The position numbers and the translations under genes are program-made. A stretch of DNA of 34,260 nt from Burkholderiaceae bacterium (GTDB lineage: Bacteria > Pseudomonadota > Gammaproteobacteria > Burkholderiales > Burkholderiaceae_E), in NCBI GenBank assembly GCA_021463505.1, contig JAJTYR010000039.1, positions 1 to 34,260 on the forward strand, read 5' to 3'. This document shows, piece after piece, positions 4,677-34,260 of the stretch. Position 1 is the stretch's first letter, and the number at the start of each line of letters is the position of its first letter. The notes below the pieces were generated by a model, which saw only the letters and a list, made by a program, of their open reading frames with translations, was not told the DNA's origin and did no database searches.

Positions 4677-4830
4677 CAGCCCCATCGAACAAGGCCATTC
4701 GAAGCACAGGTGTGGAAGGCGTCACGGCAAACGCACGGCGACGTGCATAGAGTGCCTGGCACGTGGTGCCGCAGCATCGGACACCGTTCGCCCCGCTGTC
4801 GCGGCGAGGCCTGACACCGAGGAGACCGTG

Positions 4831-6924: not shown

Positions 6925-6941
6925 CGATCGACGCGGCAGCT

Positions 6942-10806: not shown

Positions 10807-11080
10807 CGTACCTCGCGTTCCACCGGCAACACGTGAGATACGTCCGCCGCCGCCGCCGACCATGAACGACAGTCTGCAGCGGGGTTCCCGCCACGGGGAT
10901 CGGATGCGCGGGGCATGTTAACTTATGCGCACACAACGGGATCCGGCTGGCCGAGGGCGGTGCGCACCCGGCCACAGCACGCCGCCGACAGGCGTGATGA
11001 AGTGCCTTGCGCCTGCACAGACCAGTTCGGACACTTGAGGCCTTCGACGGGCGTCGTGCGCTCGTAATCCGGGGACTGTC
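10807..11080. promoter_or_regulatory. Divergent intergenic region upstream of the epsF-epsG-wzy operon
   Basis: 274 bases between the divergent GT14-like gene and epsF. It must carry the promoter for the polymerisation operon. I looked for a sigma-54 type TGGCAC-N5-TTGC element, as might be expected for EPS genes under PrsK/PrsR-type control, and do not see a good match on the + strand. An AT-richer patch (GTTAACTTATG near 10918-10927) is the most promoter-like spot. No gene is apparent. Confidence 0.3.
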
Positions 11081-12505: not shown

Positions 12506-12526
12506 CCCGAAACCCAGAGACAGCCG

Positions 12527-13453: not shown

Positions 13454-13468
13454 CCCCGGGTACCCGCG

Positions 13469-14965: not shown

Positions 14966-15915
14966 CCCATGCGATGGTCGGCCGCCAGGTCGAGACATGC
15001 GACTCGCGCTTTTCGCGCTTGCCACAAGCAGTCTGGGCAGCGCTCGCATGTCCACAATGCGGTGGAAATCTAGCCAAGACCGCGACCGGAATGCGGTGCA
15101 GCGATTGCCATAACCCATTCGACGACACTCATGACGGGAATGCCGATCTCCGGATCCGTTCCCCGAAATGCTATCCGGTGAACTATCAAATTGGAGGGGA
15201 GTTACTGCCGGTGGGATTCAGATTCGCACCGCTTGAAATAAGGCCCAACCCGGCAGTTGACTTCTCGCAGATCAGCCCCCCCTGGCACCTGAGCCGCGCG
15301 CTCTTGTCATACTTCCCGAAAGCCAAGTCAACGAAAAGCGTCGCGCTCGATCTTGGTTGCGGCACTGGGCTTCATCGTGAGGTTTGTGAGCACGCCGGCT
15401 TCCAGTGGGCCGGACTGGACTACGCGAATCCGCAGGCGCCAATTCTCGGAGATGGTCATGCGCTGCCATTCCGCTCGAACAGCGTCGAACTCGTGGTGTC
15501 GCTGGCGGTCCTCGAGCACATTCGCCACCCATCAGTAGTGGCGCGTGAAGTGATAAGAGTGCTTGCCCCGGGTTGCTACTTTATCGGCACAGTGGCCTTT
15601 CTCGAACCTTTTCATGGCGACAGCTTCTATCACCACACACATCTGGGCACGTTCAACACGCTGCAGTCTGCCGGGTTCGACGTTATCCGGGTTGCACCAA
15701 TCCGTAACTGGTCTGGCATGCGCGCCCAAGCCACGATGAGCCTGTTTCCGAGGCTCCCAGGTCCATTGGTAACCACCCTCATCGGGCCTGTAGAGGGTCT
15801 GCACAAATTGTGGTGGCGTCTCGGCCGCTTATTCAGCCCGGCCGCAAGCGAGCTCTCACGGCAGTTAGCCAATGCAGGTTCCTTCGAATTCGTCGCGCGC
15901 AAACCTGCTGGCTGA
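14962..15915 (+). CDS. SAM-dependent methyltransferase with N-terminal zinc-ribbon-like knuckle
   Basis: A 317-residue protein from GTG 14962, which overlaps the wzy-like stop and follows GGATAGAG; ATG 14974 is an alternative. Residues about 30-55 contain CPQCGGNL...MRCSDC, a four-cysteine Trm112-like/zinc-ribbon knuckle common before class I methyltransferases of glycan loci. Motif I is VALDLGCGTGLHREV, followed by AGLDY (acidic residue after strand 2), DGHALPFRSNSVELVVSLAVLEHI and VIRVLAPGCYFIG. It would use S-adenosylmethionine in the cytosol, probably to methylate a sugar or sugar carrier. Base use becomes clearly AT-richer within this gene than in epsF/epsG, marking the start of a compositionally distinct block. 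Confidence 0.85.
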   Translation: MTHAMVGRQVETCDSRFSRLPQAVWAALACPQCGGNLAKTATGMRCSDCHNPFDDTHDGNADLRIRSPKCYPVNYQIGGELLPVGFRFAPLEIRPNPAVDFSQISPPWHLSRALLSYFPKAKSTKSVALDLGCGTGLHREVCEHAGFQWAGLDYANPQAPILGDGHALPFRSNSVELVVSLAVLEHIRHPSVVAREVIRVLAPGCYFIGTVAFLEPFHGDSFYHHTHLGTFNTLQSAGFDVIRVAPIRNWSGMRAQATMSLFPRLPGPLVTTLIGPVEGLHKLWWRLGRLFSPAASELSRQLANAGSFEFVARKPAG

Positions 15916-15954
15916 ATAGCAGCCACTCACCTGCGCGAATGGCCAGCATGCGGG

Positions 15955-17082
15955 TTATTTCGGCATGCCGATGAACGGCGGTGGATTCGCCCGGATCCGG
16001 GCCTCACTCAAATTCGTCCAACTGAACAACTGCCAGTCTTTGGTTACGTACTTCAATCGAGCGAATCCCATGTAGATAACGTTCTCACCCTGAACCTTGA
16101 ACCCCGAGATTGTAGCCTGATCTCGGAAGTAATCGCCCGCGCCCGCGGACAGAATGTGCGCGAGATGTCTGTCGTCCGGGCCTTTCGGATTGTCAAGTAT
16201 CAGGCGCGAAAAATACGCGGTTGCAACGCCGACCGCGTTCACTGGAATCCGATGAGGCGAGGCCCACGTATGCCAGAGATGTCGTGCATAGGATTCGCGC
16301 CCGATGCTGCGCATCGAGGCTCCGCCTCCGTTATTTGTCTCATCGCGCCAGATGTCGGTCCCGTTGATATCCGTGCCTTCAGCCCAGTCCAGTGGATACA
16401 TGTTCGGTCCAGGGCTCGGGTTGTGCGAGCCGAGTACCCACTGTCCACTATCAAGCAACCACCACATCTGGATGTCACGCTGCTGAACCCGGGTGTTCGG
16501 CGCCTGATTTCCGGTATAGGGGCTCGCCACACGCCATGGATATCCATTGCCATTCACATGGTTCGTGTCGGCCATCGTGTGCGTCCACGGAGTTGCGTAC
16601 TGCCAGCCCGACGGCTCACGCGCTTTCGCTTCTGGAAACGAAGCGCCAGATCCCCAGCCTTTTATGGTCTCCAAGACTGCGCTTGGCCCATCGTGGAACC
16701 ATTTCATGTCGCTGACCATGGTATCGACCAAATTGATCGAACTGGGCACCGAAGCCGACGTCTTTGGTAGCACCGTCGAAGCAGCGGCGAGCGACCCGGA
16801 TTCGGCGGTAGCGGGAGCGCTAGTCGCCGTAGGTTCGGTTATATCCTTCATGTCGGACAGGACCGGCTTTTCGGAATAGTCCTTCGGCGCAAGCGTCGAA
16901 AGTGAGGCTTCCGCAAGTGGCGGAGCAGTGCCACCATCACTTGGGTCCACCAGACCACAGCCCGAAATGATCAACGAAGCCAAACAAGCACTCAGCACAC
17001 CTTTGTTCCCTACCGGGCAAATCCGTAATTCCTTCTTGAACAGCGTAGCATCTTGCCGTTTGGCACGCTGGAGCTTTTTCAT
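15955..17082 (-). CDS. Unrecognised secreted lipoprotein
   Basis: ATG 17082 is preceded by GGAG nine bases upstream and gives 375 residues; an in-frame start further up lacks support. The N-terminus has a long basic stretch, a hydrophobic segment (VLSACLASLII) and a lipobox ISGC with Cys42, followed by Gly, so lipid anchoring is likely, probably to the outer membrane. Residues 43-120 are a Ser/Thr/Ala/Pro-rich linker. The remaining domain of about 250 residues is rich in Trp, Gly and Asn (QMWWLLDSGQWVLGSHNPSP, DWAEGTDINGTDIWRDE, YARHLWHTWASPHRIP). I do not recognise the domain. Composition is AT-richer than the flanks, suggesting transfer. It is convergent with the methyltransferase. A role in binding or processing the polysaccharide is possible but is inference. 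Confidence 0.72.
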   Translation of the reverse strand: MKKLQRAKRQDATLFKKELRICPVGNKGVLSACLASLIISGCGLVDPSDGGTAPPLAEASLSTLAPKDYSEKPVLSDMKDITEPTATSAPATAESGSLAAASTVLPKTSASVPSSINLVDTMVSDMKWFHDGPSAVLETIKGWGSGASFPEAKAREPSGWQYATPWTHTMADTNHVNGNGYPWRVASPYTGNQAPNTRVQQRDIQMWWLLDSGQWVLGSHNPSPGPNMYPLDWAEGTDINGTDIWRDETNNGGGASMRSIGRESYARHLWHTWASPHRIPVNAVGVATAYFSRLILDNPKGPDDRHLAHILSAGAGDYFRDQATISGFKVQGENVIYMGFARLKYVTKDWQLFSWTNLSEARIRANPPPFIGMPK

Positions 17083-17162
17083 GACGCATTTCTCCACTTC
17101 ATTCACGTTGCTCGCCGAACCAGTCGCCAAGGCTGCAAGTGCACACACCGAGACCGGAACGT

Positions 17163-17198
17163 GACCGATGTCACGAACGCTAGTTCGGAAGTCCGGTC
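17163..17198. repeat. Nested inverted repeat upstream of the lipoprotein gene
   Basis: GACCG (17163-17167) pairs with CGGTC (17194-17198), and inside it CGAAC (17174-17178) pairs with GTTCG (17183-17187) around GCTA. The dyad lies about 80-115 bases upstream of the lipoprotein start on the minus strand, a plausible place for an operator. The motif GTGACCGAYGT occurs here and again near 17279-17289. It could equally be a remnant of mobile DNA. Confidence 0.35.
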
Positions 17199-17339
17199 AG
17201 TCTAAGAAGACGTCGACGGGTGGCCATCTAACGCGGATAGATGGGGGGGATCGGTCGACTACGAGCGACAGACGGCATGTGACCGACGTAGTGCCTTCAG
17301 GCTGGCGGCAAGTACCGATCCGGTTAGCGGCGGGCGTAA

Positions 17340-17531
17340 TTTGCACACTCGCCTCCCGCTGCTCACTCTGTGGACGAACGTGGAGGTACCGCTCGTCTGT
17401 GGATCAGCCGACGAACCGTCTACTACTGGATCGAGTCGGGACAGCTCGATTTACAGCCCGACGAGGAGTCAGTCAGCGAAGCCGAGCGAATCATCGAGGC
17501 GAAAGAACCTCGCGATAACCGACCCAGGTGA
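17340..17531 (+). pseudogene. Helix-turn-helix protein fragment, probable transposase or excisionase relic
   Basis: The + frame open from 17340 to TGA 17529-17531 contains RLWISRRTVYYWIESGQL then DLQPDEESVSEAERIIEA. The first part reads as a recognition helix and wing of a small HTH domain, as in excisionases and the N-terminus of some transposases. There is no ATG, an in-frame stop lies at 17337-17339, and no catalytic domain follows. I call it a relic by inference; a short functional protein from GTG 17370 is possible but has only a weak site before it. Confidence 0.35.
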
Positions 17532-17695
17532 GCGCTCTCGAAATTGCCGAGAAATGCGTACGCCGATGTGTGGAACGTAGGTCAGCAAAAAGTTACCGGC
17601 GCATAAGGCGAAACTCGTCCGGTGCACGCTGGAACTTACGATTAGTGCGGATGTGCGGCCGATTGGGTACAACCGCGATCGCTGGACGAAATCGG

Positions 17696-18808
17696 TTACA
17701 GGCGCTCGCTCAGAGCATCACGGTAGAACTGGACCGTCTGTTCGGCAATTCTCGACCAATCGTATTCCTCATGAACGCGCGACTGCAGCGCCTTCCAGAC
17801 CTGCGGCGGAACCGTATCGGGGATCCTGGACATCGCCGTGGCCATTGCGTCGACATCGCCCACCTGGAAATAGCAGTCGGCGGGCAATTCGATTTCATGG
17901 TTTGCCGGAATGTTGCTGGCGACCACGGCCCGCCCCGCACTCAAGGCTTCCAGTAACGCGATGGGCAGTCCCTCGATGGCCGAGGGCAGAACGAAGCAAC
18001 CGGCATTCGTGAACAATGTCCGGAGATCCACGCCGCTGCGGAATCCGGCAAGAACAACGCCGGCACGCCCCGCCGCCATTCGTCGAACGCGTTTGCTGTA
18101 TGCGTCGTCGCCGGAAAGATCTCCCACCAATACCAGTTTCCAGCCCGGCAGTCGTGCCCGGGAAAACGCTTCGATCAGATCGTCCTGACGCTTGTCCGGA
18201 ATTGCACGACCCACGTGAAGCACATAACGACTCGAATCCAGGCGCAATTCGTCGAGGACGGCACCCGAGTCGGTCGGACCCATGAATGGCACACCATTGA
18301 GAATCACCACCGGTTCGCGGCCATACAGACGATTCAACTCGGCCGCTCCGTGTCGGGAAACGCTGATCACCTGGTTGGCATAGCGCATGGCCATCCGCTC
18401 GCCGGTCTCGAGGATCCATTTCCCGAGCCTTCCCCACTTGGCCTGCACGTAGTCCGGTGCGTGATGCGTCACCACAACGTGAAGCCCCAGGAGTCGTGCC
18501 AATGGCGTGAAGATTGCCGGGCCCACCGAATGCAGATGCAGCACGTCGGGACGATGCATCGCTGCGTAGAGCACCCCGAGGAATGTGTGCAGGATCACCT
18601 CCATCCCGGATTTGCGCGGGGACCACAGACGCCGGATCCGCACGCCGCGCCATTGCCTCGTTGCAGTGCGCGCGACATAGGCGCTTCGCACGAGAATTTC
18701 GACGTCGACACCGGCATTGGCAATCAACGGATACAGGTGCTCGCAATGCGACTCCACTCCGCCCGCGATACCGGGCAAGGCACGCAAACCGAGGACCATG
18801 ACCTTCAT
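17696..18808 (-). CDS. Glycosyltransferase family 4 (GT-B fold)
   Basis: A 370-residue GT4 enzyme. The N-terminal domain opens MKVMVLGLRALPGIAGGVESH, with the Gly-rich donor-site loop, then VLHLHSVGPAIFTPLARLLG and VVTHHAPD. The C-terminal nucleotide-sugar domain has YVLHVGRAIPDKRQDDLIEAF and the E-x7-E motif in PSAIEGLPIALLEALSAGRAVVAS. It would be a retaining, cytoplasmic transferase acting on the lipid-linked repeat unit. Its ATG overlaps the stop of the upstream GT4 as TGATG, so the two are co-translated. The sequence opening is reminiscent of the rhamnosyltransferase-like DUF1972/GT4 group, but the sugar is not determined. Confidence 0.88.
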   Translation of the reverse strand: MKVMVLGLRALPGIAGGVESHCEHLYPLIANAGVDVEILVRSAYVARTATRQWRGVRIRRLWSPRKSGMEVILHTFLGVLYAAMHRPDVLHLHSVGPAIFTPLARLLGLHVVVTHHAPDYVQAKWGRLGKWILETGERMAMRYANQVISVSRHGAAELNRLYGREPVVILNGVPFMGPTDSGAVLDELRLDSSRYVLHVGRAIPDKRQDDLIEAFSRARLPGWKLVLVGDLSGDDAYSKRVRRMAAGRAGVVLAGFRSGVDLRTLFTNAGCFVLPSAIEGLPIALLEALSAGRAVVASNIPANHEIELPADCYFQVGDVDAMATAMSRIPDTVPPQVWKALQSRVHEEYDWSRIAEQTVQFYRDALSERL

Positions 18809-20037
18809 CAGGAGATCCTCGCGCCCGTCAATCGATACGCTTCGATCAATCGTTCGACATGTCTTCGAACGGTGAAGTCGCGTTCCACCCAGGCGCGCGC
18901 CTGGCGCCCCTGAGCTGCGACTTCCTGGTCTGGCGCCTGCTCAAAGTGCCGCAGAACCCGGGCGAGATCGTCGCTGTCGCCACTTTCGAACATGTCGCCC
19001 GTCTCGCCTGCGCGGATCAACTCGGGTATGCCCCCAATCCGGGCCCCCAACGCCGGCTTGCCGCAGGCGTAGGCCTCGAGGATGGAGAGCGGGGCGTTTT
19101 CGTACCATTCCGAGGGCAGAACTACTGCTCGGCTGCTGCGGATCAGACTCCATAGGGCTGCGCCCTTCTGGAACCCGCAGAAGCGGACACGCGCACCGGA
19201 CACTTCGGCCTGACGGCGGAGATCCGCTTCCATCGGTCCCGTGCCCACCAACCACACCTCCACTCCCGATTTTGCTGCTGCATCCAGAAGCGTGACGAGA
19301 CCCTTCTCCTTGCTCAGCCGGCCGAAATACAGGAAATGTCTTCCGGGCTCGAACGAGGGCGTAAGCGATTCCACGTCGGCGAAGTTCGGTATGTGGCTGA
19401 ACGGAGGGTCGGTCCAGCCCCATTCGCCGAATTTGTCGATGAAGAACCGGCTCGGCGAGATGAGCCTGTCGATCGAGTTCCGGTAAATGCCGGACAGGGC
19501 ATGGAGACTCGATTCCGCGAACACCAGCGAGCTGAGCGCCAGCGAACCTTTCAGGCACCGTTTCCTCACGACCGAGAAACGTCCCGAGATTTTGCACTCT
19601 TCGCAGATCTCGCCGTTGGACAGCATGCTGATTGCCGGACAAAGCAGCTTGAGGTCGTGCGTCGTCAGCAATACCGGGATGCCGCATTGCCTGGCAGCGC
19701 GAACAACGGAGGGCGACAGGTGATGGTAGAGATTGTGGGCGTGTACGACGTCTGGACGTTCACGGTGAATCAGGTCCCGGATCTTTTTCGCCGCTTCGAA
19801 TGAATAGATGACTTTCGCCGCATGGCGCAGTTTCGTGAAAGCGCTGTAGTCGTGGCCATACTCGATCTCCTCGGAAAAATGTTCCGCGAACTCGGATGGC
19901 TCGTTCTTCGGGTGACGCATGGCGAACTCGGCTACTCGCCACCCCATCTCGCGGAGCAACCGGCCCTGCTCTAGGTAGACCACGTCGGCCCCGCCACGTC
20001 GGTAGTGGTAGCTGTTTATGAGGAGAATCTTCGGCAT
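18808..20037 (-). CDS. Glycosyltransferase family 4 with cysteine-rich insert
   Basis: A 409-residue GT4 enzyme beginning MPKILLINSYHYRRGGADVV, followed by DVVHAHNLYHHLSPSVVRAA and LLTTHDLKLLCP. A Cys cluster (LLCPAISMLSN, EICEECK, then KRCLKGS) occurs around residues 135-165; this four-Cys pattern recurs in a subset of bacterial GT4 proteins and may bind metal. The donor domain has FLYFGRLSKEKGLVTLLDAA and PSEWYENAPLSILEAYACGKPALGA. It is the first gene of a two-gene minus-strand operon, with the next GT4 starting at its stop codon. Role: sugar addition to the repeat unit; specificity unknown. Confidence 0.88.
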   Translation of the reverse strand: MPKILLINSYHYRRGGADVVYLEQGRLLREMGWRVAEFAMRHPKNEPSEFAEHFSEEIEYGHDYSAFTKLRHAAKVIYSFEAAKKIRDLIHRERPDVVHAHNLYHHLSPSVVRAARQCGIPVLLTTHDLKLLCPAISMLSNGEICEECKISGRFSVVRKRCLKGSLALSSLVFAESSLHALSGIYRNSIDRLISPSRFFIDKFGEWGWTDPPFSHIPNFADVESLTPSFEPGRHFLYFGRLSKEKGLVTLLDAAAKSGVEVWLVGTGPMEADLRRQAEVSGARVRFCGFQKGAALWSLIRSSRAVVLPSEWYENAPLSILEAYACGKPALGARIGGIPELIRAGETGDMFESGDSDDLARVLRHFEQAPDQEVAAQGRQARAWVERDFTVRRHVERLIEAYRLTGARIS

Positions 20038-20291
20038 CTCGGTTTCCTGCGCCTGGTCAAGGTTCTGATGTCCATATTCTGAGGTCGATGACCCACAGGA
20101 GCGCGTCGGAATGATACACAGCGACCCGCGAAGATCGGTTCACCGGCTCCGTTCGTCGCCGGGGGCACCCTGTCGGTCACTCGAAAGATCACCCGGATGT
20201 GGCATCCGACATACTGCCCCGAGAGGACTGAACACGACAATGTGGCCAAGCAACACAGCATCAGCCATCCTTTCCCCAGCGGAGCCATCGA
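20038..20291. promoter_or_regulatory. Divergent intergenic region between GT4 and oxidoreductase genes
   Basis: 254 bases between starts at 20037 (-) and 20292 (+). Promoters in both directions are expected. On the minus strand a TTGACC (complement of 20055-20060) could be a -35 element, but I see no matching -10. No gene or RNA motif is evident; the open frame crossing it lacks a ribosome site and family resemblance. Confidence 0.3.
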
Positions 20292-21395
20292 ATGATCCGG
20301 GTCGGAGTTGCCGGTCTGGGCAAGATGGGCCTGTCCCATCTCGCGATGATCAAGACACACCCTGACGTTGAGGTCACGGCGGTCTGCGACCCGGCGGGCT
20401 ACGTCGTCGACGTCCTCGGCAAGTACACCGGCGTGCGCTCGTTCACCAGCTATCCGGCGATGCTGGCCGAAGCCGAACTGGACGCGGTCCTGGTTTCGAC
20501 GCCCTCGCGTCTGCATGCCGGCATGGTCCGGGCGGCGCTGGATCGCGGTCTGCACGTCTTCTGCGAAAAACCGTTCGTCCTCGATCCGGGCGAAGGTGAT
20601 GAGCTTGTCCGCCTTGCCGAGGCCCGGGGACTCGTGAACCAGGTCGGGTATCACTACCGCTTCGTGGCCGCCTTCCAGGAAGTGAAACGGTTGCTCGAGA
20701 TGGGTGCGATCGGGGAGGTCACCCACGTGAAGGCCGAAGCCTACGGGCCCGTGGTCCTCGAGCCGAAGGGATCGACCTGGCGCACCCAGCGTGCCGAGGG
20801 TGGCGGCTGTCTCTACGACTACGCCGCACACCCGATCAATCTGGTCAACTGGTATTTCGGCGCTCCGATCGGCGTGGGCGGAACGGCACTGAACAAGATC
20901 TTCTCCCGGGATAGCGAGGACGAGGTCTATGGAACGCTCTATTTCGATGGCGGCAAGACCGCGCAGATCTCGGTCAACTGGTGTGACGAGTCGTTTCGGA
21001 AGATGAGCACGCAACTGACGATCTGGGGCACGGCCGGGCGCATCTACGCTGATCGTCAGGAGTGTCAGATCTACTTGCGCGATGGCGCCGCGGTACCCGA
21101 AGGCTACCGGCCTGGCTGGAACGTGCGCTACACGACCGACATGACTCCGCCCGTATGGTTCTACGTCCGCGGCGAGGAATATTCGGCGCAACTCGACTAC
21201 TTCGTGCGGCGCGTCGCCGCGCGCGACACCGGGAACGTCAACTCGTTTCGCAGCGCGATCATCACCGACCGCGTGATCGCGGAAATGATCGCCGATGCCG
21301 AGGCCGGGCCGCGTACCGAGCGGGGTACGCGCGCACCGGTTCCACGGCGAACGGGGTGGATGTCATGGCTGCGACCGGCAGCGGGAGTGAAATGA
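20292..21395 (+). CDS. Gfo/Idh/MocA-family NAD(P)-dependent sugar oxidoreductase
   Basis: A 367-residue protein. The Rossmann start IRVGVAGLGKMGLSHLAMI carries GxGxxG; AVCDPAG follows, then LVSTPSRLHAGMVRAALDRGLHVFCEKPFV with the family's EKP motif near residue 96. The second domain has GYHYRFVAAFQEVKRLLEMGAIG and GGGCLYDYAAHPINLVNWYFG; Asp-x-x-x-His in this segment fits the catalytic region. It probably oxidises or reduces a nucleotide sugar or sugar in EPS precursor synthesis. It overlaps the next gene by ATGA, implying a functional pair. The last 25 residues are basic and proline-rich and look dispensable. Confidence 0.86.
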   Translation: MIRVGVAGLGKMGLSHLAMIKTHPDVEVTAVCDPAGYVVDVLGKYTGVRSFTSYPAMLAEAELDAVLVSTPSRLHAGMVRAALDRGLHVFCEKPFVLDPGEGDELVRLAEARGLVNQVGYHYRFVAAFQEVKRLLEMGAIGEVTHVKAEAYGPVVLEPKGSTWRTQRAEGGGCLYDYAAHPINLVNWYFGAPIGVGGTALNKIFSRDSEDEVYGTLYFDGGKTAQISVNWCDESFRKMSTQLTIWGTAGRIYADRQECQIYLRDGAAVPEGYRPGWNVRYTTDMTPPVWFYVRGEEYSAQLDYFVRRVAARDTGNVNSFRSAIITDRVIAEMIADAEAGPRTERGTRAPVPRRTGWMSWLRPAAGVK

Positions 21396-22270
21396 TGGAC
21401 AGGCTGCTGTTCGGCGACAACCAGTTCTTCGGCGTGAACCACATGTCCGAGGAGAAGGCGCGGGCGCAGGCAATGCGCTTCCAGGATACGCAGGCGATCA
21501 TCGACGTGCTGGACACTGCCTACGACGAGGGGATTCGCACCTTCATGTGCACCACGCACGACCGTATCGCGGAAATCGCCTCGCATGTGCGCGCCCACCC
21601 GACCCGTTACCACGACTTCCTCTTTTACCCGTGCATGCCGTACGCGCACAAGTACGCGAACGCGATGACCGACTACGGAATGCTCGGTGCGGTCAAGCGC
21701 TTCCTGCCCGACGAGGGCCTGCTCGATGCGGCGATGCGCGGCGGCATGTCGCTGGCGAAGAAGGACATCGAGGGAGTCACCACGCTGCTGATCGATGCCG
21801 AGATGAAGATGTTCCAGGGCCTGAAGACGCCGGTGGTCTTCCTGCAGAACGCGGTGGTCGACTTCCTTCTCGGCCTGGGCTTCAAGGAGGCGTTCAGGAT
21901 CTTCGCCAACCACGTCAAGGCGCGCTACAGTGCCGAGCCCGGCTTCATCACGATGAACCTGCCGATGCTGCTCGACGTGCTCGACGAGGTGGGCATCGAC
22001 CACCCGATCGTCTGTGCCAACATCAACAAGATCGGCTTTCGCATGTGCGGGGGCATCCAGGCGTACGAGCGCGCCCTGCGTGAGCGGCGCTTTCGCGCGA
22101 TCGCGATGTCGGTGTTCGCGTCGGGCGCGATTCCGCCCGAAGAGGCCATCCAATGGATCTGCGCGCATCCGCAGATCAGGTCGGTCGTGTTCGGCGCCTC
22201 GAGCCGCGGCAACATCCGCAGTACGCGCGCGCTGATGGAACGGTACTCGCGCGAACTGATGGTCGCCTGA
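21392..22270 (+). CDS. TIM-barrel protein distantly resembling aldo/keto reductases
   Basis: A 292-residue protein starting at ATG 21392 within the oxidoreductase stop (ATGA) after a GGGAG site. It opens LLFGDNQFFGVNHMSEEKA; QAIIDVLDTAYDEGIRTFMCT then resembles the aldo/keto reductase segment that leads to the catalytic Asp/Tyr, and IRSVVFGASSRGNIRSTRALME resembles the C-terminal NADPH-phosphate site. The canonical Asp-Tyr-Lys-His catalytic set is not obvious, so it may be a non-canonical reductase or a different TIM-barrel enzyme. Coupling to the Gfo/Idh/MocA gene suggests that both act on one sugar intermediate. I can place the fold, not the reaction. Confidence 0.62.
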   Translation: MMDRLLFGDNQFFGVNHMSEEKARAQAMRFQDTQAIIDVLDTAYDEGIRTFMCTTHDRIAEIASHVRAHPTRYHDFLFYPCMPYAHKYANAMTDYGMLGAVKRFLPDEGLLDAAMRGGMSLAKKDIEGVTTLLIDAEMKMFQGLKTPVVFLQNAVVDFLLGLGFKEAFRIFANHVKARYSAEPGFITMNLPMLLDVLDEVGIDHPIVCANINKIGFRMCGGIQAYERALRERRFRAIAMSVFASGAIPPEEAIQWICAHPQIRSVVFGASSRGNIRSTRALMERYSRELMVA

Positions 22271-22367
22271 ACTGACCAGGGTTGCGCGATCGGCTGATCG
22301 AGGCGGCTACGGAAAAGTCGTCGGTGGCTAATCCAAAGTTCCTGAGCCGTTCGTATGGGGATTGTCG

Positions 22368-23603
22368 TCAACGATGGGAGCGCGTGCCGCTACGCTGCTG
22401 CGCCCCGAGTTCGCGGTAGTTCTCGTACACCCGCGCCAGCACCTTGGCAGGCGTGAACTTGTCGATGGCCTGCACGCAACCGACGCCGGCCTGGCCCGGC
22501 GCCCGACGCAGCACGCGGTCCAATCCGGCGGCGAAGGCCTCTGCCGTCTGTTCATGGACCACGGTGCCGCAGCTCTCGTTCACTACCTTACGCACCTCGC
22601 CGACGTCCATGGTCACCACCGGCAAGCCGGACCCCAAGGCCTCCAGCAACGCCATCGGCATACCTTCATAAGCCGACGACAGAGCGAACACATCCGCGCT
22701 GCGCAGTAGGCGAGCGATCTCCTTCTGGGGCCGCAGTCCCAGAAAACGTACCCGCGGCGCGAAGCCGGTCGATGCCACCCGGCCCTGCAAGCCATGACGT
22801 AGTGCGCCATCGCCCACATAGACCAGTACCAGTTCTGGATGTGCAGCAGCTATTCTGGCAAAAGCATCGAACAGCAAATCAGGTTGTTTCGAGGTATCGA
22901 TACGTCCCACCGTCACCACCAGTTTCGAACTCGGCAACAGGCCCAGTTCGGCACGCATCTGCGCGCGTAGTTCGTCCGCAAGCGCTGCGTCAAGCTCCGG
23001 GTGAAAGACTTCTACGTCGACCCAGGTGGGCACGAAGTGAACGTTGCCTGCCCACGACGGAAACCGCTTGCGCAACGTCGAGACGCCGGTTTCGCGCACG
23101 CAGAAGGCAGTCTCCAGCATCGGGATCAGTCGGTTCTCCAGCCACAAGTAGGCACTTGGCAGCGCACGCCACCGGCTCTCGGTATTCTTGCTTTGCAGGT
23201 GCGTCATGTCCTGGTGAAAGAACGCGTTCTTCGGCCGCGTGTCGCCGAAAAAAAGCAGCAGCGGTTCGACACGATGCAGTTCCAGCACGTCGAACCCTCT
23301 CATCAGGTCGACGCGGTAGCGCACGACGTTCCGACACAGGCGTAGCGTCGACGGGATCGCTGAACGCCCGCCCGCGTTGTGCTCCACGAATACCGGGAAG
23401 AAGTCAAAATCGCGCCGGCCCAGCGAGCAGCGGGTCCAGCGCCCCACAGGCCGCTTGTCGGGTTCGGTGGTCATGCCGACAACACTAAACTCCAGGTCTT
23501 CTGGCGCCCACTTGACAAGACCGCGGATGAAGGTGTCGATGCCACCCGCCACCACGCCTAACGGGTCGGCCTGGTAGAAGCTCCGAATGCGTGTGGTCTG
23601 CAT
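22368..23603 (-). CDS. Glycosyltransferase family 4
   Basis: A 411-residue GT4 protein: SFYQADPLGVVAGGIDTFIRGL at the N-terminus, VLELHRVEPLLLFFG in the acceptor domain, and a donor domain with KLVVTVGRIDTSKQPDLLFDAF, LVYVGDGALRHGL and SSAYEGMPMALLEALGSGLPVV containing the E-x7-E motif. It is convergent with the TIM-barrel gene across 97 bases that hold no terminator I would trust. It heads in the same direction as the SDR gene upstream of it, 70 bases away. Codon use is somewhat AT-richer than the type I operon. Sugar specificity unknown. Confidence 0.87.
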   Translation of the reverse strand: MQTTRIRSFYQADPLGVVAGGIDTFIRGLVKWAPEDLEFSVVGMTTEPDKRPVGRWTRCSLGRRDFDFFPVFVEHNAGGRSAIPSTLRLCRNVVRYRVDLMRGFDVLELHRVEPLLLFFGDTRPKNAFFHQDMTHLQSKNTESRWRALPSAYLWLENRLIPMLETAFCVRETGVSTLRKRFPSWAGNVHFVPTWVDVEVFHPELDAALADELRAQMRAELGLLPSSKLVVTVGRIDTSKQPDLLFDAFARIAAAHPELVLVYVGDGALRHGLQGRVASTGFAPRVRFLGLRPQKEIARLLRSADVFALSSAYEGMPMALLEALGSGLPVVTMDVGEVRKVVNESCGTVVHEQTAEAFAAGLDRVLRRAPGQAGVGCVQAIDKFTPAKVLARVYENYRELGAQQRSGTRSHR

Positions 23604-23673
23604 CAGATGCCACTGTCATCCAGTGTCCTCGTCGAACGCGGCCACTCCGACGGAATACATTCCGCAAGGTGCA

Positions 23674-24813
23674 TCAGCCACCCCTCAGCAGTCCGCGTTC
23701 CTGCATTTCGCGGAGTGAACGTTCATAGTCTCCGGTCTGCGCGTTCTGCTGCTGCACCCAAGCTACGAAGCGCGCCAGTCCGTCCGTGAATGGTACCTGT
23801 GGATGGAAGCCCAACGTCCGCCGTAAGTGGGTCAAATCGGCGATGTTATGGCGGATATCCCCCACGCGGAACATGCCCGACACCGTGATCGGCACATCCC
23901 GGCCGAAAAGCTTTGCCAACTCGTTAGCCACCTGCAGCACCGTGGTCTGCTGGCCTGACCCAACGTTGAAGACCTGGTGGTCAGCCGCTGGGCTTTCGAT
24001 GCCGGCTAACGTGGCCGCTACCACGTCGGAGATGTAGACGAAATCGCGACTGGCCAGACCGTCCTCGAACACATTGATCGGCAGTCCTGCAAGAATGCGG
24101 CTCGAGAAGATCGAGAGGATGCCGGTATATGGGTTGCTGAGAGACTGCCCGGGTCCATAGACGTTCTGATAACGGAACGAGACCGCAGGAATGCCGCAAG
24201 CTCGGCACGAGGTCATGACCAATTGCTCCTGCACCTGCTTGGTGATCCCGTATATTGACGAAGGATGGATCCTGGACTCCTCGTCAGTCGGCATGAGCTT
24301 CAATGCAGAGCACCCGGCATCGGTGACCTCGAAACGGCCAGCCTTCATGTCGGCTTCGCTGCGTTGGAGGGGATACACCACTCCGCGCTCCTCGCTCAAG
24401 TATTTGCCCTCACCATAAATGGCGCGGCTGGATGCGACGACGACCTTGCGCACCGTGGAGGCCACATTGGCCAGTATGTCCAGCATGATAGACGTGCCGC
24501 GGACGTTCACATCGACATACTTCTCAATCAAGTACATCGATTGTCCGGTCCCGGTCTCCGCCGCCAGGTGAACTACCACATCCTGATCGGCCAAGGCCCT
24601 CGCCCAGTCATCGCGAGAAGTCACCGAGCCGTGCATGAACTCCACCTTGCCCAGGATAGAGGCAAACAGCGGCGATGTGGACGACGGATCGCTGCCGTGG
24701 ATTTGCTCGGAGAGGTTATCCAGCACCCTCACCTGCCAGCCCTTCTGCAGCATGCGAATTGCGAGGTGCGATCCGATAAAACCTGCACCACCCGAGATGA
24801 GCACTCGTTTCAT
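23674..24813 (-). CDS. NAD-dependent extended SDR, probable dTDP-L-rhamnose 4-epimerase-like
   Basis: A 379-residue extended SDR. ATG 24813 starts [18 protein letters not shown] with GxxGxxG; a GTG at 24828 touching the upstream stop is an alternative. Further features are VVVHLAAETGTGQSM, SSRAIYGEGKY and the catalytic Y-x3-K in SSIYGITKQVQEQL near residues 190-200. The segment FRYQNVYGPGQSLSNPYTGILSIF, followed by EDGLASRDFVYISDVV, is what I associate with dTDP-L-rhamnose 4-epimerases, which make dTDP-6-deoxy-L-talose. That fits the rml genes at 31098-34097, though other nucleotide-sugar 4-epimerases share it. Cytosolic. The SDR family is certain and the substrate tentative. Confidence 0.8.
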   Translation of the reverse strand: MKRVLISGGAGFIGSHLAIRMLQKGWQVRVLDNLSEQIHGSDPSSTSPLFASILGKVEFMHGSVTSRDDWARALADQDVVVHLAAETGTGQSMYLIEKYVDVNVRGTSIMLDILANVASTVRKVVVASSRAIYGEGKYLSEERGVVYPLQRSEADMKAGRFEVTDAGCSALKLMPTDEESRIHPSSIYGITKQVQEQLVMTSCRACGIPAVSFRYQNVYGPGQSLSNPYTGILSIFSSRILAGLPINVFEDGLASRDFVYISDVVAATLAGIESPAADHQVFNVGSGQQTTVLQVANELAKLFGRDVPITVSGMFRVGDIRHNIADLTHLRRTLGFHPQVPFTDGLARFVAWVQQQNAQTGDYERSLREMQERGLLRGG

Positions 24814-24828
24814 CGCATGAAATCTCAC

Positions 24829-28001: not shown

Positions 28002-30509
28002 ATGCACAGGGCGCGCACTTCGTCGACGCCACTCACCATGAAGCAAGCCGTGACCCCGAGCCGAATCGATGCGCCCTGCACGGTCGCCATCGCTCCGACG
28101 GCGATCCGCCGGCGTGTACGCCTCTCGATCTGCGTGGCGCTCACGGCCCTTTTCGTTGCCGGATGCGGTGGCGGCGGATCGACTGCGACCCCGGAACCGA
28201 CGCCGACGCCGACCCCTACACCCACGCCGACGCCCACACCCGAGCCCCCGCCACCTCCACCTCCGCCACCGCCTCCCCCACCACCGCCTCCGCCGCCGCC
28301 GCCGGTCAGCCTCACGGTGAAGTCGCTGTCGGCGCCGCCCGCCATGGTCAGCGGTGACGACGTGCTGTTGCAGGTTGACGTGCCTGCCGGCAGCGACCCG
28401 GCCAAGGTGTCGGTGCTGCTGAACGGCTTCGACGTGACCGGCAAGTTCCGCGCGAAGACGGGCGAGAACGCATTGATCGGGCTGATGGACAAGTCGGAGG
28501 CGAAGTACACGCTCGGGCCGGGATCGAACCTCGTCGTGGCGCGCTACGACACCGACAAGGGGAGCGGCGAGCTGACGCTGTCGAACCACGCGGTCTCGGG
28601 GCCCGTCTTCTCGGGCCCGCACGAGCGCCCGTTCGTCTGCGAGACCGCGTCGTTCGTATTGCCCGATGGCAGCAGCCTGGGCAACCCGCTGAACTGGGAC
28701 GTGTGCTCGTCGTCCACCCGCACGCAGTACGTCTACTGGTCCACGTCGCAGCAGCGTTTCGTTCCTACGACGACGCCCAACAGTCTGCCCGGCGACGCCG
28801 GGTGGATCACCGTCGAAGGGCGCAACGTGCGCTTCGTGGTGCGCATCGAAACCGGAACGATCAACCGGGCGATCTACCAGATCGCGATCCTGCACAACCC
28901 GGCCGCCGACGCTGCACCGTCACCGTTCGCACAGCCTTCGGGCTGGAACCGCAAGCTGGTCTACTCGTTCGGCGGCGGCTGCAGCGCAGGCTGGTACCGG
29001 CAGGGCACCGAGGTCGGCTGGGACAGCGGGTACTACGAGCGGAACGGTCCGATGCAGTTGCTCGACCCGGAACTCCTGAAGCGCGGCTTCGCGATCGCGT
29101 CGTCCACGCTGAACGTCTTCGCACAGAACTGCAACGAGGTGCTCGCCGCCGAGACGATGGCGATGGTGAAGGAACACTTCATCGAAGCCTACGGCGTGCC
29201 ACGCTACACGCTCGGCTGGGGTTGCTCGGGCGGCGCGTACCAGGAGTACCAGATCGCGGACAACTATCCGGGGCTGCTGGACGGCCTGATCGCCGGCTGC
29301 AGCTATCCCGAGGTGAGCTTCACGACCGTGCACTTCATGAGCGATGCGCGCCTGCTCAACCGCTACTTCAACGGCGTCTACTATCCCGGGCCGTCGTTCT
29401 CGGATGCGCAGAAGCGCGCGATCAGCGGCATGGTGAGCGTGGGCACGCTGCAACTGATGGATGACGGCGCGGCCGACCGCATCGGAGTCGGCGACTGTCC
29501 GGCGGTCCTGCCCTGGGAAGATCGCTATCGTCTCGGCGACAATCCGGGCGGTGCGCGCTGCGGCGTCTTCGACCACAGCGTCAACGTCTGGGGCACGCGG
29601 CCGAATCCGCTCAATCCGGGGCCGGATCCGCTCAGTCCGAACACGATCGCGAGGCGCCCGCTGGACAACACCGGCGTGCAGTACGGCCTGAAGGCGCTCA
29701 ACGCGGGCACCATCGGCGTCGACCAGTTCCTCGACCTGAACGAGAGGATCGGTGGCTTCGATTCCGAAGGCAATCCGACCGCCGAAGGCGGTGCGCTGCC
29801 GGCGCCGCGTTCGGTGGCCGACGCGGCAACGCTGCCGATCGCTTACCGAAGCGGACGGATGCTGTACGGCGGCTGGGGCCTGAAGAACGTGCCCATCGTC
29901 GACTATCGCGTCTACGAGGACGACAGCGCGGGTGGCGGGTTTCACCTGCGCTACCACTCGTTCGTCATCCGCGAGCGACTGCTCAAGGCGAACGGCACCG
30001 CGGCCAACCACGTCATGCTGCTCCAGGGGAGCGCGCCGACGGTCTTCAGTTCGCAAAGCGCGCTGGTGCGGCACGCACTCGACCAGATCGACGAGTGGCT
30101 GACGGCGATTCTCGCCGACTCCACGACGGACGCGCAGGCGGTCAAGGTGGCACGCCACCGGCCGGCCGAGCTGCGCGAAGGCTGCGTGCCTCCCGGTTCG
30201 AGTTACCCGGCCTTCCGGGCGGAAACGCTGACACCGGGCTCCGGTTCGTGCGCGAGCTGGTATCCGGTGAGCTTCGGCACGCGCGCGGCCGCCGGCGCTC
30301 CGGCCGTGCTCGACGTGGCCAAGTGCCAGCTCAAATCGGTGGACACGGCGCTGGGGGACGGCACCTACGCGGTGTCCTTTACACCCGGGCAGCAAAATTG
30401 GCTGAAGTCCATTTTCCCCTCGGGCGTCTGCGACTGGGACAAGCGCGGCGAGGGCCAACCGTCAGCCGCCGAGTACCAATCACTTCAGCCCTGGCAGACC
30501 TTCGACTGA
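28002..30509 (+). CDS. DUF6351-family lipoprotein, alpha/beta-hydrolase-like
   Basis: 835 residues from ATG 28002 (ATG 28038 is a real alternative). A long basic leader precedes the hydrophobic core LSICVALTALF and lipobox VAGC (Cys55), followed by a Gly tract, so it is probably an outer-membrane lipoprotein. Then comes a low-complexity tether: Pro-Thr dipeptides over about 62-82 and a run of 20 prolines. The large mature domain has RFVVRIETGTINRAIYQIA, which I associate with DUF6351, and a nucleophile elbow GWGCSGGAYQEYQ (G-x-S-x-G) as in tannase/feruloyl-esterase-like hydrolases. Several Cys suggest disulfides outside the cytoplasm. It may hydrolyse an ester or polyester at the cell surface; the substrate is unknown. 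Linkage to the EPS genes may be incidental. Confidence 0.78.
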   Translation: MHRARTSSTPLTMKQAVTPSRIDAPCTVAIAPTAIRRRVRLSICVALTALFVAGCGGGGSTATPEPTPTPTPTPTPTPTPEPPPPPPPPPPPPPPPPPPPPVSLTVKSLSAPPAMVSGDDVLLQVDVPAGSDPAKVSVLLNGFDVTGKFRAKTGENALIGLMDKSEAKYTLGPGSNLVVARYDTDKGSGELTLSNHAVSGPVFSGPHERPFVCETASFVLPDGSSLGNPLNWDVCSSSTRTQYVYWSTSQQRFVPTTTPNSLPGDAGWITVEGRNVRFVVRIETGTINRAIYQIAILHNPAADAAPSPFAQPSGWNRKLVYSFGGGCSAGWYRQGTEVGWDSGYYERNGPMQLLDPELLKRGFAIASSTLNVFAQNCNEVLAAETMAMVKEHFIEAYGVPRYTLGWGCSGGAYQEYQIADNYPGLLDGLIAGCSYPEVSFTTVHFMSDARLLNRYFNGVYYPGPSFSDAQKRAISGMVSVGTLQLMDDGAADRIGVGDCPAVLPWEDRYRLGDNPGGARCGVFDHSVNVWGTRPNPLNPGPDPLSPNTIARRPLDNTGVQYGLKALNAGTIGVDQFLDLNERIGGFDSEGNPTAEGGALPAPRSVADAATLPIAYRSGRMLYGGWGLKNVPIVDYRVYEDDSAGGGFHLRYHSFVIRERLLKANGTAANHVMLLQGSAPTVFSSQSALVRHALDQIDEWLTAILADSTTDAQAVKVARHRPAELREGCVPPGSSYPAFRAETLTPGSGSCASWYPVSFGTRAAAGAPAVLDVAKCQLKSVDTALGDGTYAVSFTPGQQNWLKSIFPSGVCDWDKRGEGQPSAAEYQSLQPWQTFD
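28181..28303 (+). repeat. Low-complexity tract coding Pro-Thr repeats and polyproline
   Basis: Tandem CCGACG/CCCACR hexamers encode alternating Pro-Thr, followed by twenty consecutive CCN codons. In-frame slippage could change tether length without breaking the gene. The mixed third bases show that it is maintained as protein rather than as a pure microsatellite. Confidence 0.85.
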
Positions 30510-30545: not shown

Positions 30546-31001
30546 TCAGCCGGGCCCCGCGTCGACACGCGCGCACCGGCCCGGTTCGCCGGCAGGTGTG
30601 CTCCTGGCGCGCAGCGCCCACAGCAGCAGCACCGCGAGCGCCGCGCCGACGAAGTCGGCCACCAGGTCGGGGGCGCCGGCGCTGCGCCCCGGCAGCCTCA
30701 GCTGCGCGAACTCGTCGAGCAGACCGATGCCGGCAGCGATCGCCACGGCGCCGACGTGCGCACCGGCACCGCGGCCGCCGAACACGATCCACCCCAGGCC
30801 CGCGATGCCGCCGAAGACGCTCAGGTGCGCCAGTTTGTCCCACGGCGCCGGAATCCATCCCGCGGCCCAGGGCCTGGCGCCGAGCACGAAGAGGTTGGCC
30901 ACCAGCGCCAGCGCGAGCAGCGCCGCAGTCAGCCGCAGCGACGCGGGCGGATCGATCAGCAGGCCGGCGATGCGCCCGATCGGAGCGTTCGTTTCGTGCA
31001 T
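30546..31001 (-). CDS. VanZ-like family membrane protein
   Basis: A 151-residue protein starting at ATG 31001; the frame is open further upstream, but that part is antisense to rmlB. It has about four membrane helices. The family's conserved parts are WDKLAHLSVFGGIAGL (Asp-Lys-x-x-His) near 58-73 and LLDEFAQLRLPGRSAGAPDLVADFVGA (Asp-Glu-x-x-Gln, Pro-Gly-Arg, Asp) near 101-127. VanZ-like proteins are small inner-membrane proteins of uncertain biochemical role; VanZ itself gives low-level teicoplanin resistance, but most homologues are unrelated to resistance. It is convergent with the DUF6351 gene and divergent from rmlB over 96 bases. Confidence 0.83.
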   Translation of the reverse strand: MHETNAPIGRIAGLLIDPPASLRLTAALLALALVANLFVLGARPWAAGWIPAPWDKLAHLSVFGGIAGLGWIVFGGRGAGAHVGAVAIAAGIGLLDEFAQLRLPGRSAGAPDLVADFVGAALAVLLLWALRARSTPAGEPGRCARVDAGPG

Positions 31002-31097
31002 CGACCGATCATATGGCACGCCTCGCTCCCCACCCGGTTCGCGGCCGCTCGACGGCACCTGCCCGCCGACCGCGACCCCTGCTGAGCCAGGCTGCAC

Positions 31098-32162
31098 GTG
31101 ATCCTCGTCACCGGCGGAGCCGGATTCATCGGTTCCAACTTCATCCTCGAATGGCTGCGGGTCGTCGGCGAGGACGTCGTGAACGTCGACGCCCTCACCT
31201 ACGCAGGCAACCTGGCCAACCTCTCGCCGCTGTCCGGTGATGGCCGACACCGCTTCTGCCGCGCGGACATCGGCGATGCCGAGACGATGTCCGCGCTGCT
31301 GCGATCTCATCGTCCGCGCGCGATCGTGCACTTCGCGGCCGAGAGTCACGTCGACCGCTCGATTCACGGGCCCGGTGCGTTCGTCAGGACGAACGTCGTC
31401 GGCACGGCGACCTTGCTCGAGGCCAGCAGGGCCTACTGGAACGAACTGACGTCGCAGGAGCAGGCGGCGTTCCGCTTCCTGAACGTCTCGACGGACGAGG
31501 TCTACGGCTCGCTCGGTCCCCGCGACCCTGCTTTCACCGAGACGAACCTTTACCGGCCGAACAGCCCCTACTCAGCCTCCAAGGCCGGCGCCGACCACCT
31601 GGTGCGTGCGTACCACCATACCTATGGCCTTCCAGTCCTCACGACGAATTGCTCGAACAACTACGGTCCCTATCAGTTTCCCGAGAAGCTGATTCCGCTG
31701 ATGATCGCCAACGCGCTTGCCGGAAAGCCGCTGCCCGTCTATGGCGACGGCTTGAACGTCCGCGACTGGCTCTACGTCACGGATCACTGCGCGGCGATCC
31801 GGCGGGTACTCGAGGCCGGCCGGCCCGGAGAGACCTACAACATCGGCGGCAACGCCGAGCGCACCAACATCGAGATCGTCCGGCAGGTATGCACGCTGCT
31901 GGACGCGCGGCGACCCGACCCGGCCGGCCCCCACGCGCGGTTGGTCAGCTACGTGAAGGATCGCCCCGGACACGATCGCCGCTACGCGATCGACGCATCG
32001 AAGATCGAGCGCGAACTGGGCTGGCGCCCAGCCGAGACCTTCGACTCGGGGCTGGCCCGCACCGTCGACTGGTACCTCGCGAACCAGGGCTGGGTATCGG
32101 AAGTGGTCTCCGGGGAATACCGCAACTGGGTCGAACTGAACTACGGTGGTCGTCGTTCATGA
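31098..32162 (+). CDS. rmlB: dTDP-glucose 4,6-dehydratase
   Basis: A 354-residue protein from GTG 31098, the only start that keeps the N-terminal strand [18 protein letters not shown] (GxxGxxG). Family hallmarks are [37 protein letters not shown] and the catalytic Y-x3-K in [38 protein letters not shown] and [15 protein letters not shown] are diagnostic for RmlB. It converts dTDP-glucose to dTDP-4-keto-6-deoxyglucose in the cytosol using bound NAD. It overlaps rmlA by ATGA. Length is normal and all expected motifs are present. Confidence 0.96.
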
Positions 32163-33034
32163 AAGGAATCATTCTCGCGGGAGGATCGGGCACCCGTCTG
32201 CACCCGATCACGCAAGTCGTGTCCAAGCAATTGCTGCCGATCTACGACAAGCCGATGGTCTACTACCCCCTGTCGACGCTGATGCTCGCCGGCATCCGCG
32301 AGATCCTGGTAATCTCGACGCCAAGCGACACACCGCGTTTCCGGCAACTGCTTGGCGACGGCAGCCAGTGGGGCCTCCGACTCGACTACGCGGTGCAACC
32401 GGCACCTGAGGGGCTGGCCCAGGCCTTCCTGATCGGCGAGCACTTCATCGAGGGCGACCGTTGCGCGCTGATCCTCGGCGACAACATCTTCTACGGCCAC
32501 GACCTCGCGAGCGACCTGCTGGGGGCGGCATCCGATTCGAAGGGTGCGACGGTGTTCGCGTACCCGGTGCTAGACCCGGAGCGATACGGCGTGGTCGAGT
32601 TCGACGCCGACTGGCGTGCGATCGGCATCGAGGAGAAACCCAGCCAGCCGAAGTCGCGCTATGCCGTCACCGGACTGTACTTCTACGACGAGCGGGTCGT
32701 CGAGTTCGCGAAGTCGCTGCGACCATCCGCGCGCGGGGAACTCGAGATCACCGACTTGAACCGGGTCTACCTGGAACATGGCGCACTCAACGTTCGCGTC
32801 ATGGGCCGGGGACACGCGTGGCTCGACACCGGTACCTGCGAGTCGCTGATCGATGCGTCGATGTTCGTGCAGACTGTCGAGAAGCGGCAGGGCCTCAAGA
32901 TCGCGTGCCCGGAGGAGATCGCCTTTCGTCGCGGGCTGATCAGCGCCTCGCAGCTCGAGGCGCTTGCCAAGCCGCTGCTGAAGAGCGGATACGGGCAGTA
33001 TCTTCTTTCGATCCTGCGGGACCGGATCGTCTGA
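32159..33034 (+). CDS. rmlA: Glucose-1-phosphate thymidylyltransferase
   Basis: A 291-residue protein beginning [19 protein letters not shown], with the nucleotidyltransferase loop, then [33 protein letters not shown] (metal-binding Asp), [18 protein letters not shown] and [19 protein letters not shown]. It makes dTDP-glucose from dTTP and glucose-1-phosphate, the first and feedback-controlled step of the rhamnose pathway. The ATG overlaps the rmlB stop by four bases, and 19 bases separate it from rmlC. Full length and motif-complete. Confidence 0.97.
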
Positions 33035-33053: not shown

Positions 33054-33608
33054 ATGAGGACCATCGAGACCGATTTGCCCGGAGTGCTCCTGATCGAGCC
33101 GCGCATCTTCGAGGACTCGCGCGGCTACTTCATGGAGACCTACAACGAGCGGAATTTCCATCGTGCGGGAATCGCCGAACAGTTCGTCCAGGACAATCAC
33201 TCGCACTCTCGCAAGGGCGTCCTCCGGGGCCTCCACTATCAGTTGACGAATCCGCAGGGGAAGCTCGTTCGTGCGGTCAACGGCGAGATCTTCGACGTCG
33301 CGGTCGACCTGCGAAGGCATTCACCGCACTTCGGGCACTGGACAGGCTTTCTTCTGTCGGGCAGCAACCGCCGGATGGCCTGGGTTCCGCCGGGCTTCGG
33401 CCACGGTTTCCTGGTGCTGTCCGGGACGGTCGACGTCATATATAAGGTGACGGCGCTGCGTCACGAGGCGGGTGAGCGCTGCCTGCTGTGGAACGATCCC
33501 GCGATCGGGATCGAGTGGCCGCTGTCCCGGCTGGACGGCGCACCACCGCTGCTGTCGCCCAAGGATGCGGAGGCCACCGCACTCGGCGACGCCGAGGTCT
33601 ACGAATGA
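33054..33608 (+). CDS. rmlC: dTDP-4-dehydrorhamnose 3,5-epimerase
   Basis: A 184-residue cupin enzyme: TDLPGVLLIEPRIFEDSRGYFMETYNE, then FVQDNHSHSRKGVLRGLHYQL carrying the active-site His and Arg, AVNGEIFDVAVDLRRHSPHFG, and WVPPGFGHGFLVLS. It epimerises C3 and C5 of dTDP-4-keto-6-deoxyglucose. The coding end overlaps rmlD by four bases (ATGA). Length matches the family (about 180-185). Confidence 0.96.
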   Translation: MRTIETDLPGVLLIEPRIFEDSRGYFMETYNERNFHRAGIAEQFVQDNHSHSRKGVLRGLHYQLTNPQGKLVRAVNGEIFDVAVDLRRHSPHFGHWTGFLLSGSNRRMAWVPPGFGHGFLVLSGTVDVIYKVTALRHEAGERCLLWNDPAIGIEWPLSRLDGAPPLLSPKDAEATALGDAEVYE

Positions 33609-34097
33609 GTGCACGCAATCGACTGCGCCTCATGGTGACGGGGACCAGCGGACAGGTGGGCTGGGAACTGTTGCGATCGCTGGCTCCGTTGGGCGACGTC
33701 GTCGCGGCGGACCGGAGCAGAATGGATTTGTCCGACCCGGACGCGATCCGGCGCACGATCCGGGACATTCGCCCCGACGTGCTCGTGAATCCTGCCGCAT
33801 GGACTGCAGTCGACCGCGCCGAGGCGGAGCCCGACGCAGCGGCAGCGATCAACGCGGTCGCTCCGGGCATCATGGCGGAGGAATGCCGCCGGCTCGACGC
33901 CCTGCTGGTTCACTACTCGACCGACTTCGTCTTCGACGACAGCCGGACGGAACCGTGGACCGAAGACGACGAGACGGCCCCGTTGAACGTCTACGGCGCG
34001 ACCAAGCTTGCCGGCGAACGAGCAGTCTTGCAGGTCGGTGCGCGGCATCTCGTGCTGCGAACGAGCTGGGTGTATTCACTGCGGGGCAACAATTTCC
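33605..34097 (+). pseudogene. rmlD: dTDP-4-dehydrorhamnose reductase, 5' part, interrupted by an insertion sequence
   Basis: ATG 33605 overlaps the rmlC stop. About 164 authentic residues remain: LMVTGTSGQVGWELLRSL (GxxGxxG), LVNPAAWTAVDRAEAEPDAA, VHYSTDFVFDD, YGATKLAGERAVL with the Y-x3-K pair, and LRTSWVYSLRGNNF. Normal RmlD is about 290-300 residues and continues after NNF with the substrate-binding domain. Here homology stops at 34097, exactly where the insertion-sequence end begins; the frame then reads three foreign codons to TGA at 34106-34108. The enzyme would lack its C-terminal domain and should be inactive unless another copy exists. The rest of the gene may lie beyond the element, off-window. 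Confidence 0.9.
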
Positions 34098-34260
34098 GGC
34101 TCTGTTGAAAATCGAGTGGGTTACCGCGCATGAGGGTTGACGGCTGCGAAGTCCAGCTTGCCGGCGATCAGGAAGATCACGGTCCTGATTGTCCCGATGC
34201 GCGTGTAGCCGCGAGCACGACGCTTGGCAGCCTGGAACAACCCGTTCAGTGCTTCGAGAA
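34098..34260. mobile_element. ISL3-family insertion sequence, one end, running off the right edge
   Basis: The sequence changes character at 34098 with GGCTCTGTTGAAAATCG, typical of an ISL3-like terminal inverted repeat start, and the transposase stop codon follows within 24 bases, the usual spacing for such a terminus. The element interrupts rmlD. The opposite end and the target duplication (8 bp in this family) are outside the window. Confidence 0.8.
34121..34260 (-). CDS. ISL3-family transposase, C-terminal 45 residues (partial)
   Basis: On the minus strand the frame entering from 34260 and ending at TAA 34123-34121 reads LEALNGLFQAAKRRARGYTR, continuing with IRTVIFLIAGKLDF and ending NPHAR. 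The NGLFQAAKRRARGY...LIAGKL ending is characteristic of ISL3-family transposases (after the DDE domain). The rest of the gene lies outside the window, so activity cannot be judged. Confidence 0.82.
   Translation of the reverse strand, partial: LEALNGLFQAAKRRARGYTRIGTIRTVIFLIAGKLDFAAVNPHAR

Follow-up and report, generated by a model that had tools for sequence, protein, structure and literature searches.

Among described systems, the locus analysed here is closest to operons of the rmlBACD (rfbBACD) type and to insertion sequences (IS) of the ISL3 family. Members of this family have imperfect terminal inverted repeats and generate target site duplications of 8 bp. ISAe1, an ISL3-family element of the Cupriavidus necator plasmid pHG1 (NC_005241.1), has ends of the form GGCTCT...AGAGGC and, in the copy examined, the 8-bp target duplication CTCTCTAT. 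AT-rich duplications of 8 bp are described for an ISL3-like transposon in the accessible part of one paper (PMC5559704).

The window, that is, the whole stretch of 34,260 nucleotides analysed, is contig C54 in its entirety, from an assembly of 120 contigs and 3.58 Mb, for which completeness is rated at 97.7% and contamination at 0.3%. At its right end lies an operon with the order rmlB-rmlA-rmlC-rmlD (Table 1), in which the first three genes exceed the NCBIfam cut-offs and both pieces of rmlD, one here and one on contig C70, match RmlD models. It differs from the described operons in that rmlD is split and in that two more partial rml loci are present elsewhere in the genome. By its sequence, the window operon can thus supply RmlB, RmlA and RmlC, whereas any RmlD made from it would be truncated.

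Table 1. Features of the rml operon, the inserted element and the second rmlD. Positions refer to the window unless a contig is named; L003 is the locus on contig C70.
Feature	Position	Strand	Basis or remark
rmlB, dTDP-glucose 4,6-dehydratase	31098..32162	+	open frame, GTG start; TIGR01181 490 bits, cut-off 365
rmlA, glucose-1-phosphate thymidylyltransferase	32159..33034	+	TIGR01207 503 bits, cut-off 361
rmlC, dTDP-4-dehydrorhamnose 3,5-epimerase	33054..33608	+	open frame; TIGR01221 241 bits, cut-off 156
rmlD 5' part, residues 1-164, cut by the IS	33605..34097	+	PF04321 2-159 here, 158-284 on C70; alignment
Left target site duplication copy, 8 bp, CAATTTCC	34090..34097		right copy at L003 1335-1342
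Left 163 bp of the 1,440-bp ISL3-family IS	34098..34260		left inverted repeat 34098-34121; remainder at L003 58-1334
C-terminal end of the 412-aa ISL3 transposase	34121..34260	-	first 385 aa at L003 1156-2, overlapping
Stretch of 57 bp identical to the start of contig C70	34204..34260		last 57 bases of the window = first 57 of C70
Open frame of 419 aa, rmlB' remnant fused to rmlD'	C2 (L056) 101-1360		runs from the old rmlB' start to the rmlD' end

A sequence-only reading of the window had placed the end of RmlD homology at residue 164, exactly where foreign sequence begins, and the profile matches confirm this. The 5' frame (33605-34096, 164 aa) matches positions 1-159 of 285 of TIGR01214 with 198 bits, below the cut-off of 224 because it is only half a gene, and also positions 2-159 of 287 of PF04321; the sequence GGCTCTGTTGAAAATCG starts at 34098, just past the break. 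The remainder of the gene, which the same reading had proposed to look for, is present on C70, where one of 15 matches in a PF04321 search of the host genome covers positions 156-284 of the family. This 3' part occupies L003 1335-1764, with a stop at 1764. The two pieces were aligned as separate fragments with 17 other RmlD sequences (the one from contig C2 and 16 from relatives, several of the 17 being taken from inside the gene). The halves abut in phase, and their sole overlap is Asn-Phe, the two residues coded by the target duplication. In all 17 comparison sequences, 10 of which are displayed in the alignment, the frame runs to a stop.

The search for the other IS end and for an 8-bp duplication was equally successful. 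CAATTTCC occurs identically directly outside both ends, and with the ends fixed, agreement at 8/8 bases would arise by chance with a probability of about 3e-5 (65% G+C assumed). The right end is set independently by a second copy of the element on contig C69 (cut at the contig start; 94% identity across the 1,219 bp compared), in which the similarity stops at the same base and a different right flank, AGAACGGA, follows. The terminal inverted repeats are imperfect, with 17 matches among the first 24 bases, and the ends resemble those of ISAe1. The transposase, whose C-terminus had been proposed from the letters of the window, is encoded by a frame that is complete across the window and C70 on the minus strand, without an internal stop, and terminates with TAA at 34123-34121. 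Its C70 part (384 aa) reaches 280 bits against NF033550, transpos_ISL3 (cut-off 180); in Pfam the transposase exceeds the cut-offs of PF01610 (193 bits, cut-off 23) and PF13542 (39.7 bits, cut-off 27.4) and falls short of that of PF14690 (21.4 bits, cut-off 25.5). It is 64% identical to the ISAe1 transposase over the 385 aa compared, whereas the DNA identity is about 70% over 1,143 bp and the ends found on pHG1 lie only 1,313 bp apart, compared with 1,440 bp here.

Ends, duplication, transposase and rmlD remainder together bear out the interruption of rmlD by an ISL3-family element, every detail of the sequence-only observation that was open to testing having proved correct. The event is an ordinary IS insertion: an ISAe1-like element of 1,440 bp transposed into rmlD, duplicating the target CAATTTCC and splitting the gene after codon 164. 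The proposed link between C54 and C70 rests on the overlap, the duplication and the continuity of the gene.

Several side observations concern the surroundings. VanZ-like genes (window 30546-31040 and L003 1907-2341, both on the minus strand) stand on the two sides of the rmlBACD operon in the same orientation. Their DNA is 80% identical over 430 bp, and the pair may reflect a duplication linked to the arrival of the operon. The copy on C70 adjoins a gene that, judged by its frame, likely encodes a glycerol kinase. Window positions 5842-24828 hold a polysaccharide cluster with a Wzx-like flippase, a Wzz-like chain-length protein and a separate ATPase, several glycosyltransferases and an epimerase. 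Within the polysaccharide region, positions 28002-30509 encode a large tannase-like protein (DUF6351) in which a stretch close to the N-terminus is rich in proline.

Concerning the age of the insertion, all four IS relatives on genome contigs for which both ends were found (L011, L013, L015 and L017) lack a target duplication. A perfect duplication is therefore not automatic, and its presence here suggests that the insertion is not old. Both annotated plasmid copies used as controls have like ends and an 8-bp duplication; in the Variovorax sp. WDL1 plasmid copy, which has such ends, it reads GAAAAACA. The C69 copy differs by 6%, which argues against its being the source of a very recent jump. 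A left end of that copy was not found in the assembly with up to 3 mismatches, the lone match being the window's own. The ISL3 model has four matches in the host genome, three of them above the cut-off (on C111, C70 and C69), and the one on C111 (L035, about 1483-2682) is a distant family member, 30% identical, that covers model positions 5-370 of 370.

Across 74 genomes of the family, host included, a transposase this similar (E up to 1e-80) was found in the host only, in two copies. The relatives of the IS in 12 named-record loci come from Azohydromonas (5), unnamed Burkholderiales (2), unnamed Proteobacteria (2), Ideonella, Paraburkholderia and Silanimonas (1 each). Among the best 12 of 33 plasmid records, those of Variovorax, Burkholderia and Cupriavidus hold the most similar relatives; the genera with the most entries among the 33 are Acidithiobacillus (9), Caballeronia (8) and Cupriavidus (5). 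The simplest inference is that the IS arrived by horizontal transfer.

Whether the rhamnose pathway is lost depends on the rest of the genome. Matches above the family cut-offs are restricted to the window copy for rmlA (1 of 5 matches), to C54 and C64 for rmlB (2 of 14), to C54, C64 and C1 for rmlC (3 of 3), and to contig C2 for rmlD (1 of 13, the pieces of the split gene each falling short). On C64 lies a shortened relative of the window operon, with DNA 87% identical over rmlB and 79% over rmlC, and the rmlA family search of the host genome gave no match there. This locus (L076, about 3165-4833) holds rmlB and rmlC only, followed by an apparent alanine dehydrogenase gene, named from its frame. 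An rmlD of its own was rejected for this locus: similarity extends only about 54 bp into the start of rmlD after rmlC, and the rmlD model matches just the rmlB there. The rmlC homologue on C1 scores 179 bits (cut-off 156). Its neighbours, read from their frames, are an apparent sugar-1-phosphate nucleotidylyltransferase, an epimerase and a methyltransferase, and it seems to be part of a different sugar pathway; the idea that it marks one more rhamnose locus equipped with an RmlD was rejected, no match of the rmlD model there reaching the cut-off.

The RmlD on C2 is full-length, matching positions 1-282 of 285 of TIGR01214 with 234.1 bits (cut-off 224.05); against PRK09987 (NF007440) it scores 178.8 bits, under the cut-off of 308. 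It is just 43% identical to the interrupted RmlD over the N-terminal part. The motifs STDYVF and YxxxK have a catalytic role in RmlD, and alignments to 1kbz and to relatives show that both are retained, the latter as YGATK. The top match of the 309-aa RmlD part among solved structures is 1kbz/1kc1/1kc3/1n2s, aligned over residues 40-303, which is named dTDP-glucose oxidoreductase in the structure listing and which we take to be an RmlD. The next, 8ctr, is named dTDP-4-dehydrorhamnose reductase.

This second rmlD lies near the contig start in a reduced locus, whose genes are marked here with a prime. Of rmlB' the locus keeps the start but has lost the greater part, rmlC' is entirely absent, and rmlD' lacks its beginning, including the start codon apparently used by the copy in genome G014; the rmlD' part has neither a stop nor a frameshift. 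Seven loci that carry an rmlD of this type were retrieved, and six of them (L059-L064, but not L065) show the order rmlB'-rmlC'-rmlD'. In L059 all three genes are above their cut-offs, and in L064 rmlA follows rmlD', both exceeding theirs. A frame break in rmlB' was observed in one such locus, on contig C1 of genome G005 (L061, about 2296-3304).

Three gaps separate the C2 locus from its relatives. The first is 561 bp in comparison with each of the five relatives measured, and the last, which was measurable against two relatives, is 735 bp in both cases. Both are multiples of three, for which the chance is about 1/9 (1/27 if the middle gap is counted). The middle gap varies, from 93 bp against G014 and G015 and 93-94 bp against G005 to 60 bp against G009 and 120 bp against G017, and may thus be plain length variation. 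This variability and the frame break in G005 weaken the argument that the reading frame was kept.

The sequence-only reading held that rmlBAC would yield only the keto intermediate, a claim that is not supported as stated, given the full-length rmlD on C2; its proviso, unless a second rmlD is present, turned out to be well placed. With this second copy in the genome, the sugar pathway is probably not lost. The keto intermediate would probably still be reduced by the C2 RmlD, carried in one frame with the RmlB' remnant, and the insertion was probably tolerated because the gene that it removed was redundant. Taken as a whole, the explanation that an IS split rmlD, that the C2 RmlD is the probable backup and that the loss was tolerated is considered to be well founded and likely. 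A scattered pathway would then be the likeliest arrangement, with A, B and C from the window operon and D from the C2 fusion. More tentative, and possible rather than probable, is the wider proposal that the pathway is assembled from the remains of three operons, all broken (the window supplying A, B and C, C64 a second B and C, and the natural in-frame RmlB'-RmlD' fusion on C2 the only D), frame-keeping deletions having preserved RmlD while its partners were lost. It should be noted that the fusion calls for caution: it may be an assembly artefact, and its RmlD activity and substrate are predicted from sequence.

The most serious alternative is that the insertion is real and that no dTDP-L-rhamnose is made at all, the C2 fusion being the dead remnant of a decaying locus. 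The loss of most of rmlB' and all of rmlC' is in line with such decay, as are the incompleteness of all three rml loci, the damage to the same locus type in G005, and the restriction of a continuous match to the 419-aa fusion to the host among 18 genomes of the genus searched (host included), that is, its occurrence in none of the other 17. However, a dead gene is not what the rmlD' part itself looks like: it is uninterrupted, above the rmlD cut-off and in possession of its motifs, and the two large deletions are multiples of three. In addition, dN/dS values for the rmlD' part (Nei-Gojobori, own script) of 0.38, 0.34 and 0.31 for C2 versus G014, G005 and G009 lie in the same range as those among the three relatives (0.34, 0.45 and 0.41), and thus give no clear sign of relaxed selection, although a recent change or loss would stay hidden in such measures. 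On balance a dead remnant is regarded as unlikely, and a working C2 RmlD as the preferred reading.

Far less probable is a reversible switch, in which the IS would excise precisely in some of the cells, rmlD being switched on and off in this way. In its favour, the transposase has a complete frame, the duplication is perfect, as precise excision would need, and circular intermediates have been proposed for an ISL3-family transposase in the part of the literature source available (PMC5559704). However, each contig crosses its IS junction (C54 the left one, C70 the right one) without a break and ends only within the element, so that the mixed population suggested earlier left no sign in the assembly. 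The rmlD searches of the genome also revealed no undivided copy of the window rmlD. Both arguments are weak, since assemblers can drop or hide a minor variant. Least probable of all is an assembly artefact, raised in the sequence-only reading as a join of unrelated contigs at a multi-copy IS: the contigs do end inside the element, and the second copy on C69 is likewise cut at a contig start, but such a join is very unlikely given that C54 and C70 each hold, next to the element, one half of the same rmlD, that these halves fit in phase, that both flanks carry the same 8-bp duplication and that the C69 copy has a different right flank.

The preferred reading, an ordinary insertion backed up by the C2 RmlD, gives the insertion as such little significance, and the only unusual part is the state of the second rmlD on C2. 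The lesson is that one broken pathway gene does not equal a lost sugar until the remaining genome has been searched. If the fusion is a working RmlD, it would illustrate, on a small scale, complementary decay among redundant operons.

A literature search retrieved no published IS insertion in rmlD, the available portions of PMC7829505 and PMC4616057 included, which is no proof of absence; the portion of PMC11702846 available held nothing decisive, and the name ISAe1 occurs in none of the papers among the matches listed. Mobile elements that break polysaccharide genes of this sort are already known. In Escherichia coli K-12, according to the part of the source available (PMC3532297), IS5 likewise hits one gene of a rhamnose-dependent surface polysaccharide pathway, wbbL. 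There, however, the target is a rhamnosyltransferase and the strain lacks the long O antigen, whereas the IS in the window hits a sugar-nucleotide reductase of which a second copy exists. Another case is the cps cluster of Klebsiella K4, in which, from the portion of the paper available (PMC4616057), wza is cut by a transposase gene: as here, one copy of a polysaccharide gene is interrupted and another is present, but wza is an export gene and both of its copies lie within one cluster.
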